Origin: Granulicella sibirica
GTDB lineage: Bacteria; Acidobacteriota; Terriglobia; Terriglobales; Acidobacteriaceae
Assembly: GCF_004115155.1 (NCBI RefSeq)
Contig: NZ_RDSM01000003.1
Span: forward strand, 372,001-436,000
Reading direction: 5' to 3'
Length of the DNA: 64,000 nucleotides
Shown piece by piece: positions 22,911-32,142 of the stretch. Within the stretch, counting starts at the first letter, position 1; each line of letters starts with the position of its first letter. The notes below the pieces were generated by a model that saw nothing but the letters and a program-made list of their open reading frames with translations, was not told the DNA's origin and did not search any database. The position numbers were made by a program, and so were the translations under genes.

Positions 22911-23570
22911 CTACAGCATAGGCGCATGAAGGAAAGCTTCCGCGGCGCTTAGACGCCGCTCCTCAGAAGATCCCGACACCATGGACTTCGACGTCTTTCC
23001 CGAAGGAACTTGGAGGCGGGCCAAAACGACACCGTCGGCATCAAAAGGCGAGTGGCCGTTCTTCGACATAATCCCGTGACACGTATCGCATCCGGTCGGA
23101 GCCTGCTTTGCCGAATGGCAGGCAATGCAGCTTCCCATGTTTGTGGGATGTTCAAGTGCAATGGCAGTCCGCTCAGCGACCGGCCCATGGCACTCCTCGC
23201 ACTTGTTGCCCGCTGCCGTGTGAGTCTTGTGGCTGAAGGTCACGAACGAAGGCACACGGTAGACGCGAACCCAGGGAATGCTGTCTTCATTCTTCGCCGC
23301 GGCCGCCAGGCGCTGAATATCCGGCTTGTCCGTCGCAACCGACGCATGGCACAGCATGCACTTCGGGGGCTGCGGCATGCTGACCGTCGAACCGTCACCG
23401 CGAGATTCATGACAGTCGTTGCATTCGAGCTTCGCAGTCTGAATGTGCAGCTTGTGGTTGAAGGCGATGGGCTGCGCCGGGGCGGCCGGCTTAGACGCGC
23501 CACCGTCCTGCGCGCGGAGACCAGCGCTCAGGCCGAAGAGTATGACGAACATCAGCAGCAAGTTCCGCAC
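22911..23570 (-). CDS. Pentaheme c-type cytochrome
   Basis: A 219-residue periplasmic protein with a signal peptide (LLLMFVILFGLSAGLRAQ). Five CxxCH heme-attachment motifs begin at residues 50, 71, 124, 148 and 161 (CNDCH, CMLCH, CEECH, CIACH, CDTCH), with extra histidines (FNHKLH, FSHKTH) as likely distal ligands, as in cytochrome c3/c7-type proteins. The start is GTG at 23570, with GAAGGGA about 7 bases upstream. It is the last gene of a three-gene unit with a GMC flavoprotein and a gluconate-dehydrogenase-subunit-3-like protein, so it probably accepts electrons from the flavoprotein and passes them to the respiratory chain. Classical gluconate dehydrogenases use a triheme cytochrome subunit of different sequence. 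Confidence 0.87.
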   Translation of the reverse strand: MRNLLLMFVILFGLSAGLRAQDGGASKPAAPAQPIAFNHKLHIQTAKLECNDCHESRGDGSTVSMPQPPKCMLCHASVATDKPDIQRLAAAAKNEDSIPWVRVYRVPSFVTFSHKTHTAAGNKCEECHGPVAERTAIALEHPTNMGSCIACHSAKQAPTGCDTCHGIMSKNGHSPFDADGVVLARLQVPSGKTSKSMVSGSSEERRLSAAEAFLHAPML

Positions 23571-23618
23571 GCAAAATCCCTTCTTCTGGAAAACAGCAGT
23601 ATCTTATGACGTCGAACG

Positions 23619-25190
23619 TTAGACGTTGCCCTTCCGCATCTCCTCGGCGAGATAATCCGAAGCACGCATGGCGAGCGTGCACATGGTAATCGTCGGATTC
23701 TGCCAGCCCGCACTTACGAAAACGCTTGCATCGGTGATGAAGAGGTTCTTCATATCGTGGCTCTGATTCCACTTGTTGACGACGCCCTTCTTCGGATCGT
23801 CGCTCATGCGCGCTGTGCCCTGCTCATGAATCGAGAAGCCAGGCGGGTTGAACTCGTAGTTTTTGACCAGGATATCGAAACCAGCGTCTTCGGCCATCGC
23901 CGACATGGTGTCGATATAGTCCTTGGTCATGTTGGTCTCGTTGCTCGTGTACTTCGTATAAATGTTGAGCGTGGGCATGCCCCAGGCATCCACGACATCT
24001 TTGTTGAGCGTAACGTGGTTCTCGTAATGCCCAAGCGTCTCGCCCATGATGTTTGTCGAGAAGGAACTCCCGTTATAGCTTTGCAGCTTCTTATCCAGTT
24101 CCTTGCCATAGAACGGCAGAGAGCGCGCGTCGAACGGACCGTTATTGTTGGAGACGTTGACGGCATAGCGGCGAAGAAAGCCATCGCTCTTCGTATCCAG
24201 GTTGCGAAAGCCCGGAATCAGCGCGCCTCCGCCCATCAGGCCCTTGCCGCCCTTGCCGTCGCGTGCCTCTGGAACCGAGCAGATGATACCCGCGCCATAG
24301 ATCTGGTCCGTGAGATAGTGCCCGAGAGCGCCACTCGAGTTGCAGATATTCGAGATCATCAGCAGACGGGTCGTCTCCAGAGTTCCCGCGGCAACGATCA
24401 CCACCCTTGCCTTCAAGACCATCTCGCGGTGCGAGTGGCGGTCAACAAATAGAACTCCGTCAGCTAGGCCAGTCGCCTTGTCCACCGTGATCTGCCGAAC
24501 GATCGCGTTGGGTATCGTCGTCAGCTTCCCGGTGGCCACCGCATCCGGAATCACCAGGTTGATGGAAGCGGCCATCCCATCCTTGCCCAGCGCCGACCGC
24601 GCCTTCGTAACCGGCACACCATGCTTCTTGCCGGCGTTCACAAACCGCTGCATGGCCCCGGACCAGGGAGAATTATCTTCGATGAACTTACCGTCAGGAT
24701 ACTGCGGCAAACCATCGGTGTGTCCCGTGACCCGGAAGATCTCTTCCACGCGCGGATAATAAGGCTCCAGGTCCTTCAGCGAGATCGGCCAGTTTTCGCC
24801 GAAGCCGTCATGATCCTTGCTCTTGAACTCGTAGTCGCTGTGGCGGAAAGACTGACGTCCCCAGAACGGCGAACGTCCACCAACGCTGCGTACCCGAACC
24901 CAGTTGTAGATCTGATCAGGCGGATGGTAGTAAGGAATGGTCTTCTCATCCACCCACATGTTCGCGTTGAACTCGCTCGCCTGGAAGACGTGCGGCAAAC
25001 GGCCCGGCGCATCGAATCCTCGGTAAGGAAGCTCGTGTACCGGCTTCAGCTCGCGATCCTTCTCGAAGTTCAGCATCGGACCGGCATCCAGCATCGTGCA
25101 GGCGATACCTTTTTCCGTCAGAATCTTTGCGGCCATTCCGCCGGTATGTCCCGACCCGATGATGAGGACGTCCACCTTCTTCTGTGCCAT
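23619..25190 (-). CDS. GMC-family FAD-dependent dehydrogenase
   Basis: A 523-residue protein. The N-terminal Rossmann motif (DVLIIGSGHTGGMAAKILTE, acidic end of strand 2 in MLDAGP) binds FAD. The GMC C-terminal domain shows HEQGTARM and ITDASVFVSAGWQNPT, with the paired His/Asn region of the active site. Closest in style to the large subunit of membrane-bound gluconate/2-keto-gluconate or sugar dehydrogenases. No signal peptide is visible; such flavoproteins are often carried across by the Tat signal of the small subunit, which is encoded upstream. It lies 32 bases after that subunit and 48 bases before the cytochrome. It probably oxidises a sugar or sugar acid at the periplasmic face; the exact substrate cannot be read. 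Confidence 0.88.
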   Translation of the reverse strand: MAQKKVDVLIIGSGHTGGMAAKILTEKGIACTMLDAGPMLNFEKDRELKPVHELPYRGFDAPGRLPHVFQASEFNANMWVDEKTIPYYHPPDQIYNWVRVRSVGGRSPFWGRQSFRHSDYEFKSKDHDGFGENWPISLKDLEPYYPRVEEIFRVTGHTDGLPQYPDGKFIEDNSPWSGAMQRFVNAGKKHGVPVTKARSALGKDGMAASINLVIPDAVATGKLTTIPNAIVRQITVDKATGLADGVLFVDRHSHREMVLKARVVIVAAGTLETTRLLMISNICNSSGALGHYLTDQIYGAGIICSVPEARDGKGGKGLMGGGALIPGFRNLDTKSDGFLRRYAVNVSNNNGPFDARSLPFYGKELDKKLQSYNGSSFSTNIMGETLGHYENHVTLNKDVVDAWGMPTLNIYTKYTSNETNMTKDYIDTMSAMAEDAGFDILVKNYEFNPPGFSIHEQGTARMSDDPKKGVVNKWNQSHDMKNLFITDASVFVSAGWQNPTITMCTLAMRASDYLAEEMRKGNV

Positions 25191-25222
25191 GCTCTCTGCT
25201 CTCTTCTCTCAGGATCCGAATC

Positions 25223-25978
25223 TTAGGAATGCTTCTGTTTCGAGGTTGGTGTGGCCTGCGCCATGCCGTTGCTCACCCATGTCTGCGTGCCCGGATCGAT
25301 CGGATGCCAGTAAAGTCCCACGCCCGGCGTACGCTCGCCGAGCGCCTCAGCTGCCTTCGCCCAAACCGGCGAGTTCATCGTGGCCGTCCTAATGTCGCGG
25401 TGCGCCAGGTTAACGAAACGGATGTGACCCTCCGTCGGCGGATGATCATTCATCCATCCCTTCAGATGAGGACGGATGACGGCATCGGCCTGCTTCGCGT
25501 CAGCCTTCGCAAACGGAATGTTGAACTGCTTCATGCTGTCGGCGTTGAGGCGATCAAGGCCGTTGTTGTACATGGCCTGTTGTTCGCGGGGCGACGCCCC
25601 GATATAAAAGTCCAGGAACTCCGGCGTACCGGCTTTCAGGGCGCTTGGATAGTCGTCACCAGCCGGCATGAACACCTCGCAGAGATGCGTCAAGGTCGCG
25701 AAACGCACCGGGGTGAAATAACGCGTCTCCGTGATCGCCACGTCATCCGGTTGCGAGATCGGGATGTTCGGCGTCCGGACCTGCGCATCCCGCTGGACGC
25801 GGGAGATTGCCCGCGGACTGGAGGCCGCTGACGGGTTGACAGCCATCGTTCCCTGATCGACTGTGTTCGTAGCCGGAGGCGGATTCTGCGCCTGCGCGCC
25901 CGAATTCTGCTGTCCAAACGCTGTACTTGCCGTTGCCGTGGCGACAGCAAGGCCCTTCACAAAGTCGCGCCGTTTCAT
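25223..25978 (-). CDS. Gluconate 2-dehydrogenase subunit 3-like protein (Tat-exported)
   Basis: A 251-residue protein. The start MKRRDFVKGLAVATATASTAFG is a textbook twin-arginine signal (RRDFVKG). A Pro/Ala/Gln-rich linker follows and then the subunit-3 domain (residues about 95-230) with FTPVRFATLTHLCEVFMPAGDD near its beginning and a C-terminal GLYWHPID. In the family, this small subunit escorts and anchors the GMC flavoprotein. It is first in the unit, ahead of the flavoprotein (32-base gap) and the cytochrome, giving the complete subunit order small, large, cytochrome. Confidence 0.83.
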   Translation of the reverse strand: MKRRDFVKGLAVATATASTAFGQQNSGAQAQNPPPATNTVDQGTMAVNPSAASSPRAISRVQRDAQVRTPNIPISQPDDVAITETRYFTPVRFATLTHLCEVFMPAGDDYPSALKAGTPEFLDFYIGASPREQQAMYNNGLDRLNADSMKQFNIPFAKADAKQADAVIRPHLKGWMNDHPPTEGHIRFVNLAHRDIRTATMNSPVWAKAAEALGERTPGVGLYWHPIDPGTQTWVSNGMAQATPTSKQKHS

Positions 25979-26024: not shown

Positions 26025-28415
26025 TTAGGCCGTAGCCATCCACTCGTCACTCGCGGCGAATCCAGCCAACTTGCCGGCGCAGGTAGGTACCGTGAAGGAG
26101 AAGACCGTACCTCTCTGAGGAGCGTCGGAGATCCGGATCCGCCCACCCTGTCTCGTGACTAGGTCTTTTGCTATATGAAGGCCCAGTCCGAGTCCGTTTC
26201 GGCCAGATCCGTTTGGTTCCCCCTGGCCGGCTCTGTCGATCTGGTAGAGATTCTCGAAAACCCGCCCCCTCTGCTCCGGTGGAATTCCGCATCCCGTATC
26301 CGAGACCTGCACGAGCAGGTAGCCGGCACTCTCTTCCGAGACCTGGACGCTGATTGTGCCACCCTCAGGGGTGAACTTGATGGCATTGTCGAGAAGAATG
26401 ATCAGGATCTGGCGAAGACGGGTAGGATCGGCATAAGCGTTGTCAATTTCGATTTGACACTCCGACCGAAGCGAAAGGTTCTTGCGAGCGGCTGCGCCCT
26501 GCATCGTGTCGATGGTATCCGAGACGGCCTCCTGTGCCGAGATCGCCTGCGGATGGATGCTCAGCTTGCCTTCCCTCATTTGCGTGACGGTTAGAAGATC
26601 CTCAATCATGAACTGAAGCTGTTCGACATTCTTGAGAACGATGCCAAGATATTGCTTCTGCTCTGCCGTCGTGCTCCCGGCAAGGCCGTCCGCAATGATG
26701 GAACTGAAGGAATAGATCGACGTAAGCGGAGAGCGTAGCTCGTGCGAGACGTGCGAGAGGAAGTCATCCTTCAGCTTCAACTCCATTTTGTCCACGCGTC
26801 TCGTCTCCGCGATCAGGCTGCGCTGTTCGGTCGCATCGTGAAAGACCAGCACCGCTCCGCGAAGTTCACCTCGATCTCCGAGAATAGGGGCCGCCGAGTC
26901 CTCGATGCCTAACTGGCTTCCGTCGCGGGAGATGAGGTTCGTATTCGGTGCAAGGTTGGTAGCGCTTCGGCTTGCAAGGCACACGACGACCGGATTGTTG
27001 ACGGCCGCACCTGACTCGGCATGAACGATCTGGAAGACCTCCGTGATCGGCAACCCGATGGCCTCGCTGACAGACCATGCGGTCATCCGCTCGGCGACGG
27101 GATTCATCCAGGTGATGTTGGAATAGGCGTCGGTCGTGATAACACCGTCTCCGATGGACTGGAGGGTGACACGGAGCAATTCGTGTTGCTGAGCGAGCGC
27201 TGCGGTCAACTGCCTCGATTCAGTGACATCCCAGTTCGCTCCCACCATGCGAATCGGCTCTCCGGCATCATCACGGGATATCTGCGCAGTCGCGCGAATG
27301 TTGTGGATGCTACCATCCTGCCATAAGACTCTGAACTCCATATCGTATGGCTTTCCACCGGCCAGTGCGTCGTGGAGCGCACCCACAACAGACTCCCGAT
27401 CGTCAGGATGAAGTTGTTCGCGCCACAGCATCTCGTCGGCGGGCTCGCCGGTGTATGTCATGCCGTGAAGACGATGCATCCACCGGTCACAGTGAACAAA
27501 CCCCTTGGCGATATCCCAGTCCCAGATACCGATCCCACCACTATCGGTGGCGAGCGCGACTCGCTCGTTGGCGTCCCTGAGCGCCGTGCGTTCTGCAACC
27601 CTGGCGGTTACATCCTGGAAGGCCCCAGCCAGTCGGATCGGAACACCATCCTTAAGCTCCGCCGCTCCGACGGTGCGGACCCAAATGCGAACGCCGTCGC
27701 AGCGAGTGACGGAAAGCTCGAGGTCCCATCCTTCCCCACCCTCGCATGCTCTCTGCACCGCGGCGGTAATGATCGGGCGGCACTCGGGCGTGTAGAAAGC
27801 GAGTCCTTCTTTGAGCGTCGGCTTGTAATCGAGCGGAACTCGATGGATGCGGTAGGTTTCCGCCGACCACGTTACTTCGTTGGTAACAAGGTCCACCTCC
27901 CAGCCACCAACGCCCGCAATCGTTCCAGTGCGCTCGAGGAACTCCTCGCTCTTTCTCAAGGCTTCACTGCGTTGCTGGTCAGACACGAGAAGGTCAAAGA
28001 AACGCGTGATGTTTTTCGCAATGGCCTGCGATCGCCAGGCGAACAGGATCCCGGCTGGGATCGACGCGGTGGCACAAATGATCTTCAAGGCAATAGAGAA
28101 CTGGTAGAGAGGGAACCAGATGTTGATGATGCGGATCAGGATCGTAGCGCCACTGGCAGCAACAAAGATCTTGAAAGCGGCAAACACCCAAAGGTGAGCT
28201 CTGATTCCCGGTATGTGCTTGATCCTCGATAACAACCATCGAAGCCCGAGAAGAAATGAAGCATACGAGATCACCGTCAGCACATCGGACAGCACGTTTG
28301 TCCAGAGCAGCCAGGGGTGCGCCATGTAAAGCGCGCGCCGGGGCGAGTACTCTGAGGTGAGCAAAGTTTGAACAGGACCCGAAGAGAGAAGAAGCAGGAG
28401 CGAAGTCGGCTGCAT
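26025..28415 (-). CDS. PAS sensor histidine kinase with ethylene-receptor-like membrane domain
   Basis: A 796-residue kinase. Residues 35-115 hold three membrane helices resembling the sensor of plant/cyanobacterial ethylene receptors: LLWTNVLSDVLTVISYASF, then AAFKIFVAASGATILIRI, then ALKIICATASIPAGILF. The Asp and Tyr of helix 1 (D44, Y51) are kept, but the Cys and His of the CGATH copper motif are Ser88 and Ile92 (SGATI). Three PAS domains follow (about 130-530), then HisKA with the phosphorylated His in SHVSHELRSPLTS and a HATPase domain (NAIKFTPEGG, GLGLHIAKDL). The ATG at 28415 is one base after the stop of the response-regulator frame, so I prefer it to a TTG at 28448. The cognate receiver gene is broken by an amber codon. 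Confidence 0.87.
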   Translation of the reverse strand: MQPTSLLLLLSSGPVQTLLTSEYSPRRALYMAHPWLLWTNVLSDVLTVISYASFLLGLRWLLSRIKHIPGIRAHLWVFAAFKIFVAASGATILIRIINIWFPLYQFSIALKIICATASIPAGILFAWRSQAIAKNITRFFDLLVSDQQRSEALRKSEEFLERTGTIAGVGGWEVDLVTNEVTWSAETYRIHRVPLDYKPTLKEGLAFYTPECRPIITAAVQRACEGGEGWDLELSVTRCDGVRIWVRTVGAAELKDGVPIRLAGAFQDVTARVAERTALRDANERVALATDSGGIGIWDWDIAKGFVHCDRWMHRLHGMTYTGEPADEMLWREQLHPDDRESVVGALHDALAGGKPYDMEFRVLWQDGSIHNIRATAQISRDDAGEPIRMVGANWDVTESRQLTAALAQQHELLRVTLQSIGDGVITTDAYSNITWMNPVAERMTAWSVSEAIGLPITEVFQIVHAESGAAVNNPVVVCLASRSATNLAPNTNLISRDGSQLGIEDSAAPILGDRGELRGAVLVFHDATEQRSLIAETRRVDKMELKLKDDFLSHVSHELRSPLTSIYSFSSIIADGLAGSTTAEQKQYLGIVLKNVEQLQFMIEDLLTVTQMREGKLSIHPQAISAQEAVSDTIDTMQGAAARKNLSLRSECQIEIDNAYADPTRLRQILIILLDNAIKFTPEGGTISVQVSEESAGYLLVQVSDTGCGIPPEQRGRVFENLYQIDRAGQGEPNGSGRNGLGLGLHIAKDLVTRQGGRIRISDAPQRGTVFSFTVPTCAGKLAGFAASDEWMATA

Positions 28416-28416
28416 G

Positions 28417-28848
28417 TCAGGAGTGTGTCGCAACTTTGCAAGCGTCAAGGTCGTAGACGACCGAATCGGGATCCGATCCTGATTCGAGTATCCGCTCGAT
28501 CGAGCGCAGGAGCTCGGCGTTCTTGACGGGCTTCTGCAGGAAAATTCGTGCGCCGCAGTTGAGAGCGCGATCTTGATTCATCAACCGATTCCGTCCAGAG
28601 ACAACGATTACAGGGATCTTTGCCAGCTCATCGAGAGCCTAGAGACGTTCGAGAACAGTAAAGCCGTCGCCCGCCGGAAGGCCAAGATCGAGAAGGATCA
28701 GGTCGGGCTGGCGCCGCCGCGCCTCCGCAATGGCTGAAACGCCGTCCTCCGCCGCCTCTACCTCGTAGTTGTTGGCGCGCAGCCTGATCTTCAGGGCAAG
28801 GCGCATCTCCGGATCATCGTCCACTACCAGGATCTTCTTCAGCTTCAT
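28417..28848 (-). pseudogene. Response-regulator receiver gene interrupted by TAG
   Basis: The ATG at 28848 follows GGAGG by 9 bases. The first 69 codons encode a CheY-like receiver half (ILVVDDDPEM acidic pocket, phospho-acceptor Asp54 in ILLDLG). Codon 70 is TAG (28639-28641). The same frame then continues without a stop for 73 codons and completes the receiver fold: IPVIVVSGRN with the switch Ser/Thr position, and IFLQKPVKN with the invariant Lys106, ending at TGA 28417-28419, one base before the kinase ATG. The intact product would be a 143-residue single-domain receiver translationally coupled to the kinase. Either a nonsense mutation, a sequencing error, or suppressed/read-through decoding explains it. 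As written, it yields a 69-residue stub lacking the switch residues. Confidence 0.85.
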
Positions 28849-29187: not shown

Positions 29188-32142
29188 ATGGGCTATCTCC
29201 GGAAAGTTCGAGTGCGGCGAGCGAAGTATCTCGCAACTTTACTCATCGTCCTCGTCTCCTTCTCGTCTGTCATCTTCGCGTCGGAATCCAAGCTGACGCA
29301 ATATACCCAGACGGAACTGACCGATAGAAACGGACTCCCGCAGAATTCTGTCGCTTCGGTGACGCAGACGCGCGACGGCTATCTCTGGTTTGGCACGCAG
29401 GAAGGCTTCGCCCGCTTCGACGGAATTCGATTTACCGTCTTCAACACACTCAATAGCCGAGGCTTGAAGGATAACTATATCCAACTCCTCGCTTCGGGTC
29501 TGGATGGAAGCGTTTGGATCGGGACCAGGAGCGGGCTAACCCGCTATAGAGAGGGTGTATTTCGCAGTTACATTACGGCCGATACCCCGCTCACTACGCT
29601 CTTCGCAAGCCGCGACGGAAGCATCTGGGTCGGAAGTGCGGGACGGCTGTACTCGGTCAAAGATGATCAAGTTCGTCTCTACGGAGCAAAGGACGGGTTG
29701 CCGTGCAATGATATCCGCGGCATTGCCGAGACTCCGGACGGAACCATGTGGTTTGCGACGGCCCAGGGGCTGATGAGCCTGAAAGATGGTCGCTTCCGGC
29801 TCTACACAACAACCGACGGTCTTCCGGATAGCAACATTCTAAGAATCGTCGCCTCCCATAACGGATCTCTGTGGTTGGCGACCCCCAAAGGGATCGCTCA
29901 CTGGGATCCAGGTCATGGCCTCCTCGAGAATATAGCCACAGCCAGCATGCCCTCACACGCGCGCATCAGTTCCCTGCTTGTGGACCATGAAGGAATGCTG
30001 TGGGTCGCCTTCATGCACAGCGGAATTGCCTCATTTTCCAAAGGCTCGCTCACTGGCTATACGCATCGCGACGGCTTGCCCTCGGATGATGTGTCCGCCA
30101 TCTACGAGGACCGTGCCAACCACCTTTGGATTGGACTCGCGGAGGGTGGCGCGGTGGAACTCCGAGAGGGGCTCTTCGAGAGCTTCGGGGAGAAGGAAGG
30201 TCTCTCCGAGAACATGATCTGGACCGTCTTGCAGGCCCGCGACGGAAGCGTCTGGGTCGGCACGAACAGCACCGGTCTGAATCATGTCACGAAAGATGGA
30301 AAAGTACGCGTATTTACAACCCGGGATGGCTTGCCCGATGGGTCGGTGAATGGCCTCAGTGAGGCGAGGGACGGAAGTCTCTGGATCGGTTCAGAGCACG
30401 GTATTCTCAGCCGGCTTTTCAATGGCCACATTACCTCCTTTCGAGACGCCGAGAGCCCCGACGCGCGGATTGCTTCGATCCTCGAGGATAGAAATGGCGA
30501 TCTGTGGCTCTCGTTCCACGAACTCAACGGACTCGTGCGGTTTCATGATGGAAAGTTTGAGCACTACAAATCACCGGGGCTGCTGAATACGTCTGTCTTC
30601 GCTCCCGATGGTTCGATCTGGCTCGGCTCGGATCATGGGGGAGTAACTCACTTCTCTTCTGGAACCTTTACGAGCTACACCACGGCAAATGGCTTGTTGA
30701 GCAACTTCGCCCAGGCGATCTATGTCGATCCTGAAGGAGTCACCTGGGCGGGAACATCGCCTGGCGGCTTGAACCGTATCAAGGATGGCAAGATTACGAC
30801 GTACTCTGTCGCCCAGGGCCTGTTCGATCTGACAGTTGGTGCGATTGTCGAGGACGATTCCGGCAACCTCTGGATGACGTGTAACAAAGGTATCTTCCGG
30901 GTAAGCAAGAAGGAACTCAATGACTATGCGGATGGAAAGATCTCTTCCATCCATTCCATCGTGTATGGGACCCCTGACGGGATGAGGGTTGCTGAGTGTA
31001 ACTTTGGCGCAAGTCCGTCGATCTGGAAAGGCGAGAATGGACGCCTCTGGTTTGCCACGGTTGCTGGCGTCGCTTCGATCGACCCAAGGCTCGGCCAGGT
31101 CGTTCCTTCTCCGCCGCCCGCGACGGTCGAAAGCGTGGTGGTCAACCAGAAGGTAGTTCCGTTCCAGCGGGAGGTTATAGCTGGGCCAGAGAGCACCGAT
31201 CTCGAAATCCAGTTCACCGCGCCTGACTTTGTTGCTCCCGAGCGCATCCGATTCCGCTACCGGTTGCGTGGATTCGACCCGAATTGGGTTGAGGTAGGAC
31301 CGCGGCGACAGGCGTTCTACACCAGACTGCCGCCAGGCCACTACTTCTTCGAGGTGCAGGCAGCACATGGCGAGGGGGAGTGGGGACCGAGCGCTCCGGG
31401 AATCAAGCTTCGCATGACACCGCACTTCTGGCAGACGGGATGGTTTCGTCTCTCCTGCGGATTGCTCCTCATTCTGATCTCGGTGGTGACCTATCGCATA
31501 AGGACAGGTTATCTTGTACGCCGTAACGCCGAGTTGGAGCAGCGGGTCTTGCAAAGGACGGCCGAGCTCCAGAAGGCGACCAGGGCCGCGGAAGCAGCTC
31601 AGGCAGCCCTGCATGAGCAGGCCACGAGGGACGGCCTCACAAGGGTGTGGAATCGCCGTTCCATCTTTGAGATTCTGGAACGTGAGATCGATCGATCCCG
31701 GCGAGAGGACGGCGACGTGTGCGTCGTGATGGCCGATCTAGATCACTTCAAACAGGTCAACGACACGCACGGACATCAGGCCGGCGATTGTGTGCTCCAA
31801 GAGGTGGCCCGGCGAATTTCAGGTCTTATGAGACCGTACGATTCGGTTGGCCGCTATGGCGGCGAGGAGTTTCTGATCGTACTTCCAGGTTGCACGCAGG
31901 CCGACGCCTTCACGAGAGCGGAGGAATTTCGCCAAGCCGTCTACGGCATTCCGATACCGTTTGGGCAGAAGAGTGTTACGGCGACCTGCAGCTTCGGACT
32001 CGCGGCAGCGGTCAACGCGGCGAACTGCGAGGAGATGGTGGCTGCGGCGGATGAAGCCCTATACGTAGCCAAGCGAACCGGTAGAAACAAGGTTCACGTG
32101 TACGCCATCGAAGAGAGTCTTTCGACGATTATCTTCAACTAG
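29188..32142 (+). CDS. Two-component-type propeller sensor with GGDEF domain (diguanylate cyclase)
   Basis: A 984-residue protein. After a signal/anchor helix (LATLLIVLVSFSSVIFA), residues about 35-640 carry 13 or so Reg_prop beta-propeller repeats (DGxxWxGTxxGLxR type, e.g. DGYLWFGTQEGFARFDG). A Y_Y_Y domain follows at about 660-735 (FRYRLRGFDPNWVEVG), then a transmembrane helix (LSCGLLLILISVVTYRI), a short coiled coil (ELEQRVLQRTAELQKATRAA) and a GGDEF domain at about 810-975. The signature is GGEEF in GRYGGEEFLIVLPG and metal/substrate residues DLDHFKQVND are present, so it should synthesise cyclic di-GMP. It resembles YfiN-like hybrids where the propeller senses a periplasmic ligand. It lies divergent from a receiver/kinase pair. 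Confidence 0.9.
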   Translation: MGYLRKVRVRRAKYLATLLIVLVSFSSVIFASESKLTQYTQTELTDRNGLPQNSVASVTQTRDGYLWFGTQEGFARFDGIRFTVFNTLNSRGLKDNYIQLLASGLDGSVWIGTRSGLTRYREGVFRSYITADTPLTTLFASRDGSIWVGSAGRLYSVKDDQVRLYGAKDGLPCNDIRGIAETPDGTMWFATAQGLMSLKDGRFRLYTTTDGLPDSNILRIVASHNGSLWLATPKGIAHWDPGHGLLENIATASMPSHARISSLLVDHEGMLWVAFMHSGIASFSKGSLTGYTHRDGLPSDDVSAIYEDRANHLWIGLAEGGAVELREGLFESFGEKEGLSENMIWTVLQARDGSVWVGTNSTGLNHVTKDGKVRVFTTRDGLPDGSVNGLSEARDGSLWIGSEHGILSRLFNGHITSFRDAESPDARIASILEDRNGDLWLSFHELNGLVRFHDGKFEHYKSPGLLNTSVFAPDGSIWLGSDHGGVTHFSSGTFTSYTTANGLLSNFAQAIYVDPEGVTWAGTSPGGLNRIKDGKITTYSVAQGLFDLTVGAIVEDDSGNLWMTCNKGIFRVSKKELNDYADGKISSIHSIVYGTPDGMRVAECNFGASPSIWKGENGRLWFATVAGVASIDPRLGQVVPSPPPATVESVVVNQKVVPFQREVIAGPESTDLEIQFTAPDFVAPERIRFRYRLRGFDPNWVEVGPRRQAFYTRLPPGHYFFEVQAAHGEGEWGPSAPGIKLRMTPHFWQTGWFRLSCGLLLILISVVTYRIRTGYLVRRNAELEQRVLQRTAELQKATRAAEAAQAALHEQATRDGLTRVWNRRSIFEILEREIDRSRREDGDVCVVMADLDHFKQVNDTHGHQAGDCVLQEVARRISGLMRPYDSVGRYGGEEFLIVLPGCTQADAFTRAEEFRQAVYGIPIPFGQKSVTATCSFGLAAAVNAANCEEMVAAADEALYVAKRTGRNKVHVYAIEESLSTIIFN

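Follow-up and report, generated by a model that had tools for sequence, protein, structure and literature searches.

Altered copper-ligand residues in an ethylene-receptor-like sensor kinase of Granulicella sibirica and its relatives

What becomes of an ethylene-receptor membrane domain when the residues that hold its copper are gone? The question is raised by a sensor histidine kinase gene (26025..28415, minus strand; 796 amino acids from its ATG) in the stretch of Granulicella sibirica DNA analysed here, a window of 64,000 nucleotides. A preliminary description had proposed that this kinase follows the ethylene-receptor sensor plan, with the Asp and Tyr of plant ETR1 kept and both copper ligands of helix 2 lost. 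We find these claims borne out. We also find that the loss of ligand residues is clade-wide and broader than first noted, involving the His site, a His-x-x-Cys (HxxC) motif ahead of helix 1 and two new invariant residues.

The kinase and its membrane domain

The kinase comprises an ETR1_N-like membrane domain, PAS domains, HisKA and HATPase_c. The open-reading-frame list gives it as 26025-28448, with a TTG start 11 codons upstream of the ATG. This ATG (28413-28415) comes immediately after the stop codon of the upstream regulator gene, a TGA (TGACATG), and seems the likelier start; residues are numbered from it here. ETR1_N (Pfam accession PF25487; 28047..28310, minus strand) spans residues 36-123 (47-134 from the TTG). 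Several PAS-type Pfam matches lie C-terminal to it, in a part whose length differs among the clade members described below. HisKA (26568..26771, minus strand) contains the phospho-acceptor His558 (His569 from the TTG; 26742-26744), and HATPase_c is a Pfam match at 26085..26429 (minus strand). The motifs of both domains are intact in the window kinase and near-invariant in the alignment, in which one record (P0006) ends before the ATPase part. With HisKA, a HATPase_c that has its motifs and an adjoining response regulator gene (carrying an in-frame stop in the window), the protein has the features of a two-component histidine kinase. The kinase is free of stops in the four clade members for which we had DNA.

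The membrane domain is homologous to those of ethylene receptors. Compared with 24,736 Pfam families (hmmscan), the window kinase matches ETR1_N at E 2e-11 and 44.4 bits, against a cut-off of 27, and a six-frame search of the genome scores the domain at 49.7 bits. All 16 members of our alignment A1, among them the window's own protein in a shorter record (P0010), match ETR1_N at E 0.01 or better. A PDB sequence search with the window domain returned one match, at E 0.5; a high-resolution structure of the ETR1 membrane part is still lacking according to a review (PMC13012798). At the sequence level, the three-helix layout agrees with that of AzoEtr1 from Azospirillum brasilense Sp7, to which helix 2 aligns without gaps. 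The ETR1_N score and this alignment rule out generic membrane helices as the explanation.

Asp44 (GAT, 28284-28286, minus strand) stands opposite AzoEtr1 D35 and is the equivalent of ETR1 Asp25. Lys111 (28083-28085, minus strand) stands opposite K98, the equivalent of ETR1 Lys91, and Tyr51 (TAT, 28263-28265, minus strand) corresponds to ETR1 Tyr32. Ser88 (AGT, 28152-28154, minus strand) and Ile92 (ATC, 28140-28142, minus strand) occupy the sites of ETR1 Cys65 and His69, opposite AzoEtr1 C75 and H79. The reading frame, residues and codons given in the preliminary description are thus correct. Measured against a copper-dependent ethylene receptor, the protein has equivalents of Asp25, Tyr32 and Lys91 and lacks those of Cys65 and His69. 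Helix 2 of the window protein contains no other Cys or His, and no Met, which rules out a misalignment with the ligands elsewhere in the helix. A sequencing error at the two codons is likewise ruled out, since 17 other distinct domains also lack the His. Ile35, Pro36 and Ile62, which we take to be among the seven residues named for ETR1, are replaced by Phe54, Leu55 and Val85. Pro36 is a weak criterion because it is absent from most copper-type domains sampled (Phe in 100% of the sister proteins described below; Pro in 29% of the others).

Several of these residues have been mutated in characterized receptors. AzoEtr1 is a bacterial ethylene receptor whose binding was assayed on the first 130 residues of the Sp245 protein, and its C75A and D35A mutants did not rescue biofilm formation (PMC11819568). 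ETR1 binding is abolished by mutation of C65 or D25, and mutants of the comparable Cys in ETR1 and SynEtr1 lose binding (PMC11819568). ETR1 D25 is predicted to bond with K91 and, in published models, helps to position His69; K91 is involved in output (PMC11819568). Asp25 has been counted as belonging to the copper site, and published models have the receptor dimer made more rigid by Cu(I) (PMC12643061). An Asp-to-Asn change at the Asp25 site lowers affinity about 100-fold, according to a review (PMC13012798). Judged from its sequence, the window kinase is an ethylene-receptor-derived sensor that lacks the residues of that family's copper-ligand test, and we infer that its membrane domain is without copper.

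A clade that shares the changes

The preliminary description had suggested looking for acidobacterial relatives with Ser and Ile at the two ligand sites. Relatives without the ligands do exist, and the exact Ser/Ile pair is confined to the window protein among the 18 domains of its clade. We compiled 203 distinct ETR1_N domains, leaving out exact duplicates and rows with more than 25 gaps. Both Cys and His are present in 173 and not in 30, totals that lean on the sister group because a single search contributed 115 of the 203, all of them sister proteins. These sister proteins are acidobacterial-type ETR1_N proteins (P0017-P0136, the best 120 of 218), for example from Silvibacterium dinghuense. 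Of the 30 domains without the pair, 18 form the window's clade and 12 lie elsewhere.

We selected the clade by Arg at position 72 together with the Asp25 and Lys91 equivalents, so the occurrence of these three residues in 18/18 members is true by definition. His69 is missing from all 18 members and Cys65 from 14, the other four retaining it. Ser (13), Cys (4) and Asn (1) occur at the Cys65 site, so that 17/18 have Ser or Cys there; Val (7), Ile (6), Thr (3), Cys (1) and Ser (1) occur at the His69 site. The resulting pairs include Ser/Val, Cys/Ile, Ser/Thr and others. The Tyr32 equivalent is Tyr in 17/18 and Phe in one, and Phe61, Trp77, Pro79 and Pro100 are kept throughout. Two replacements are invariant: Glu72 has become Arg (Arg95 in the window protein; 28131-28133, minus strand) where 98% of the copper-type sister proteins have Glu, and Pro85 has become Gln (Gln105; 28101-28103, minus strand) where 87% of them have Pro. 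Scanning helix 2 across the clade revealed no conserved replacement Cys, His or Met; Met occurs at position 68 or 71 in 9/18 members.

A protein search with the window domain returned 15 proteins, including the window's own (P0010), and a search from the most divergent of them added two. One member is from Granulicella aggregans. Genome searches with the clade alignment located the clade (scores of at least 198 bits) in 4/62 genomes of the genus, 3/398 of the family and 2/396 of the phylum; for the family and the phylum (alignment A2), about 10 first-look candidates were scored per genome. The next best match in the family genomes scored 142 bits and retains Cys and His (L064). A plasmid search with the window domain gave four records, all of which score higher with a copper-type query, and Cys and His are present in three of these four records examined (L159, L160, L114). 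Further losses are scattered outside the clade, with five more domains lacking Cys/His (L118, L119, L144, L155, L156), and many of the losses there are in long-branch, low-scoring domains whose alignment is unsure. We also observed an ETR1_N hybrid kinase (L111, 7273-10914) that keeps the Cys, has Arg at the His69 site and carries two receiver matches and an Hpt.

The 18 domains have a single origin in our trees. From a 126-row alignment (rows with more than 15 gaps dropped, every third sister protein taken) stripped of its Cys, His and Arg columns, they emerge as one clade (100/94). This clade is nested in a 63-row group (98/90) in which 43 of the 45 other rows retain Cys and His; the two exceptions are both long-branch (L070, Cys/Arg; L071, Arg/His). 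A 102-row tree, with long branches taken out, the Gln column also dropped and the root placed on a group with Asn at both the Asp25 and Lys91 sites (the Asn/Asn group), recovers the clade at 100/98. For this tree we dropped rows with more than 12 gaps, took every fourth sister protein and excluded 18 locus ids, some of them absent from the set anyway (L044, L046-L049, L052, L070, L071, L092, L098, L099, L102, L105, L118, L119, L144, L155, L156). Both trees are built on 92-93 columns and have many open forks and a bootstrap that had not settled. Loss from a copper-type ancestor is the simplest reading.

The membrane domain appears to be under constraint. Between the members from G296 and G357, its dN/dS is 0.15 (99 codons, dS 0.48), compared with 0.16 for the PAS part and 0.03 for the kinase. 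Three more distant pairs give 0.17, 0.16 and 0.27 for the membrane domain, at dS values of 1.6-2.6 that are near saturation. The PAS part ranges over 0.13-0.32 across pairs, like the membrane domain over its four pairs (0.15-0.27), and these membrane-domain values argue against decay.

A receiver-type response regulator gene (28417..28848, minus strand) lies directly upstream of the window kinase and has an in-frame TAG at codon 70 (28639-28641). The regulator is also directly upstream of the kinase at three other clade loci (L060, L106 and L107), where it is uninterrupted; that of L106 is a Pfam Response_reg match. A search of the window genome for a close intact copy found none, the next match being distant (58.6 bits versus 180). 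With its partner regulator interrupted, this pathway may be breaking down in the window species. The kinase-regulator pair adjoins a recN-like gene at L060, L106 and L107, and in the window species the recN-like gene has similar neighbours on its other side, without the pair. The gene names recN, ispH, shc and hpnH were assigned by recognition from sequence.

The genes directly downstream of the window kinase (22911-25978, minus strand) encode a gluconate-2-dehydrogenase subunit 3 homolog, a GMC oxidoreductase and a multiheme cytochrome c; by eye, this arrangement was not recognised at L060, L106 or L107. On the other side, a divergent gene (29188-32142, plus strand) encodes a large protein with Reg_prop propeller, Y_Y_Y and GGDEF domains.

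A His-x-x-Cys motif ahead of helix 1

Copper-type bacterial receptors carry His-x-x-Cys at the place of Arg26-Leu29 in the window protein (28329..28340, minus strand), which lacks all four residues: Cys65, His69 and the His and Cys of the motif. The copper-type sister proteins have P-H-x-x-C upstream of helix 1, with the His and the Cys each present in 115/115. Other copper-type domains with enough upstream sequence have His and Cys no more than 14 residues from the domain in 52/53 cases. HxxC is missing from 18/18 clade members. In the 15 members that we read residue by residue, the motif His is always Arg and the motif Cys is always Leu, Val or Ile.

Across 211 domains, HxxC is present in 174/177 with Cys/His and missing from 33/34 without. 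This set comprises domains that are ungapped at both the Asp and the Cys column and have at least 12 upstream residues (L044 is dropped in this way). The exceptions are L028, L048 and L049, which have Cys/His without the motif, and L090, which has the motif without Cys/His. On plasmids of Alphaproteobacteria, Betaproteobacteria, Cyanobacteriota and Deinococcota, the motif is present in 11 of the 12 Cys/His domains examined, the exception being from Deinococcus; these 12 come from 19 records, of which the other seven are six further ones from Azospirillum and one further one from Novosphingobium.

Single cases fall on both sides. L015 has lost Cys65 and the motif together, and its close relative L079 has both; in L033, Cys65 and the motif Cys are gone and both His residues remain. 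Against linkage, L090 lacks Cys65 but has the motif, and L028 has Cys/His with the motif Cys missing. We ran an independent-change test on a quick 119-row tree, for which rows exceeding 22 gaps were dropped and every fifth sister protein was taken. Over well-supported branches it gave six pairs, three to five of them changing in the same direction and none in the opposite one (median p 0.125); the test run the other way round gave five pairs (median p 0.0625). These independent pairs are too few for significance, and we reject the claim that phylogeny proves the two motifs to have been lost in linkage. The linkage is strong as a count and not significant on the tree alone.

That HxxC is retained and lost together with Cys65 and His69 suggests that it may be part of the copper site, or of its loading, in bacterial ethylene receptors. 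The list of seven ETR1 residues does not include it. The listings and text passages that we consulted (without figures) from a library of 5.39 million open-access papers, which covers few subscription papers, contained no report of the motif or of a copper-less clade, and HxxC may be visible in printed alignments without comment.

Interpretation and comparison with known receptors

We favour, with a probability of about 0.6, an ethylene-receptor-derived two-component kinase that lost its copper ligands and HxxC at the base of the clade and works without copper. The three-helix membrane domain would descend from a bacterial copper-dependent ethylene receptor. The helix-2 ligands (His always, Cys mostly) and the motif ahead of helix 1 would have been lost at the clade base, while the Asp-Lys pair, presumed to relay the signal of helix 1 on to helix 3, would have been retained. 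The new invariant Arg follows the Cys site by seven residues and the His site by three. By helical arithmetic, this should place it one turn past the lost His, on the same ideal-helix face as the old copper site. Because it shares this face, with Asp and Lys kept and the copper ligands gone, we propose, as a guess, that Arg95 substitutes for the copper charge: its fixed charge may hold the Asp-Lys switch in place of Cu(I). The kinase would be driven by its PAS domains or by a ligand that is not copper-bound ethylene, and would signal to the receiver protein encoded directly upstream. Since the whole family shares the loss of copper residues, its membrane domain probably senses something other than copper-bound ethylene. 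A more specific version is tentative and less likely than not: here the clade would be a copper-free sensor in which the fixed Arg takes over the Cu(I) charge on the Asp-Lys switch and the pocket is freed for another ligand, and in bacterial receptors HxxC would belong to the copper site or help to load it.

The membrane domain might instead be an anchor and dimer module only, with the PAS domains doing all the sensing and the old pocket without a ligand. The several PAS-type matches, the variable length of the PAS part and the missing ligands fit such a module, but a passive anchor is expected to drift, and here Asp25, Lys91, Phe61 and Trp77 are invariant as in copper-type receptors and two new invariant residues arose. 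We regard this reading as rather unlikely. The low dN/dS, the intact kinase motifs, the uninterrupted regulators at three other loci and the stop-free kinases also stand against a degenerating receptor that is heading for loss and is stuck in a single state, as an ethylene-insensitive mutant is. Such an outcome would suit the window species, whose regulator is interrupted and has no close intact copy in the genome, and the presence of the clade in only four of the 62 genus genomes, yet we consider it improbable.

Weak copper binding is conceivable, given the Cys65 retained in 4/18 members and the reported ability of a Ser-x-x-Ser motif to bind Cu(I) (PMC12586476). The protein could then still be an ethylene or copper receptor through a different, weaker site made of the nearby Asp, Ser or Cys, and Met. 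Consistent with this are the place of Asp25 in the copper site (PMC12643061), the Ser or Cys at site 65 in nearly all members and the Met at position 68 or 71 in half of them. Such a site is nevertheless doubtful, with odds as long as those of decay. His never occurs at the His69 site, helix 2 has no clade-wide replacement ligand (and none at all in the window protein), HxxC is lost as well, and mutants of the comparable Cys in ETR1 and SynEtr1 lose binding (PMC11819568).

The field still asks by what means the copper site is assembled and binding is relayed to the kinase. A clade that keeps the Asp-Lys relay without the copper residues separates the two halves naturally, and the same genome holds the reverse pattern, in which the copper residues are kept and Asp-Lys has become Asn-Asn. 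HxxC is a possible second copper element in bacterial receptors. A 2020 review describes the domain as encoded by many proteobacteria and cyanobacteria (PMC7700396). Ligand residues should be checked before bacterial ETR1_N matches are labelled ethylene receptors.

AzoEtr1, as described in PMC11819568, resembles the window kinase in its three-helix ETR1_N domain, its Asp, Tyr and Lys equivalents, its PAS and kinase domains and its adjoining response regulator gene. It differs in having Cys75, His79 and LPHGVC before helix 1, where the window protein has Ser, Ile and SPRRAL. The regulator is upstream of the kinase in the window, whereas in AzoEtr1 it apparently follows the kinase (PMC11819568). 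Arabidopsis ETR1 and SynEtr1 share the helix plan and the Asp25, Tyr32 and Lys91 equivalents (PMC6586836, PMC12643061, PMC11819568, PMC13012798). Unlike them, the window protein lacks Cys65 and His69 and has Phe, Leu and Val for Ile35, Pro36 and Ile62; ETR1 has a GAF domain where the window kinase has PAS.

The sister proteins are the nearest group in the tree and have Asn21, Asp25, Trp77, Pro79, Lys91 and Pro100 in common with the clade. They differ in keeping Cys65 and His69, and the His and Cys before helix 1, in 115/115 distinct domains, and a PAS family is given for six of the best 120 of 218. At three related loci (L108-L110), no regulator was recognised when the ORF starts were viewed by eye. 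L109 (6704-7807) encodes a copper-type ETR1_N fused to a GGDEF diguanylate cyclase domain, not to a kinase.

The window genome encodes three ETR1_N domains in all. The Asn/Asn group, to which its two other domains conform, is also found in other genera, and 9/9 of those checked have a His and a Cys ahead of helix 1. These two paralogs (L001/L058 and L002/L059, contig C1) keep Cys, His and the HxxC motif and have Asn at the Asp25 and Lys91 sites; compared with the window kinase, the opposite half of the site is altered.
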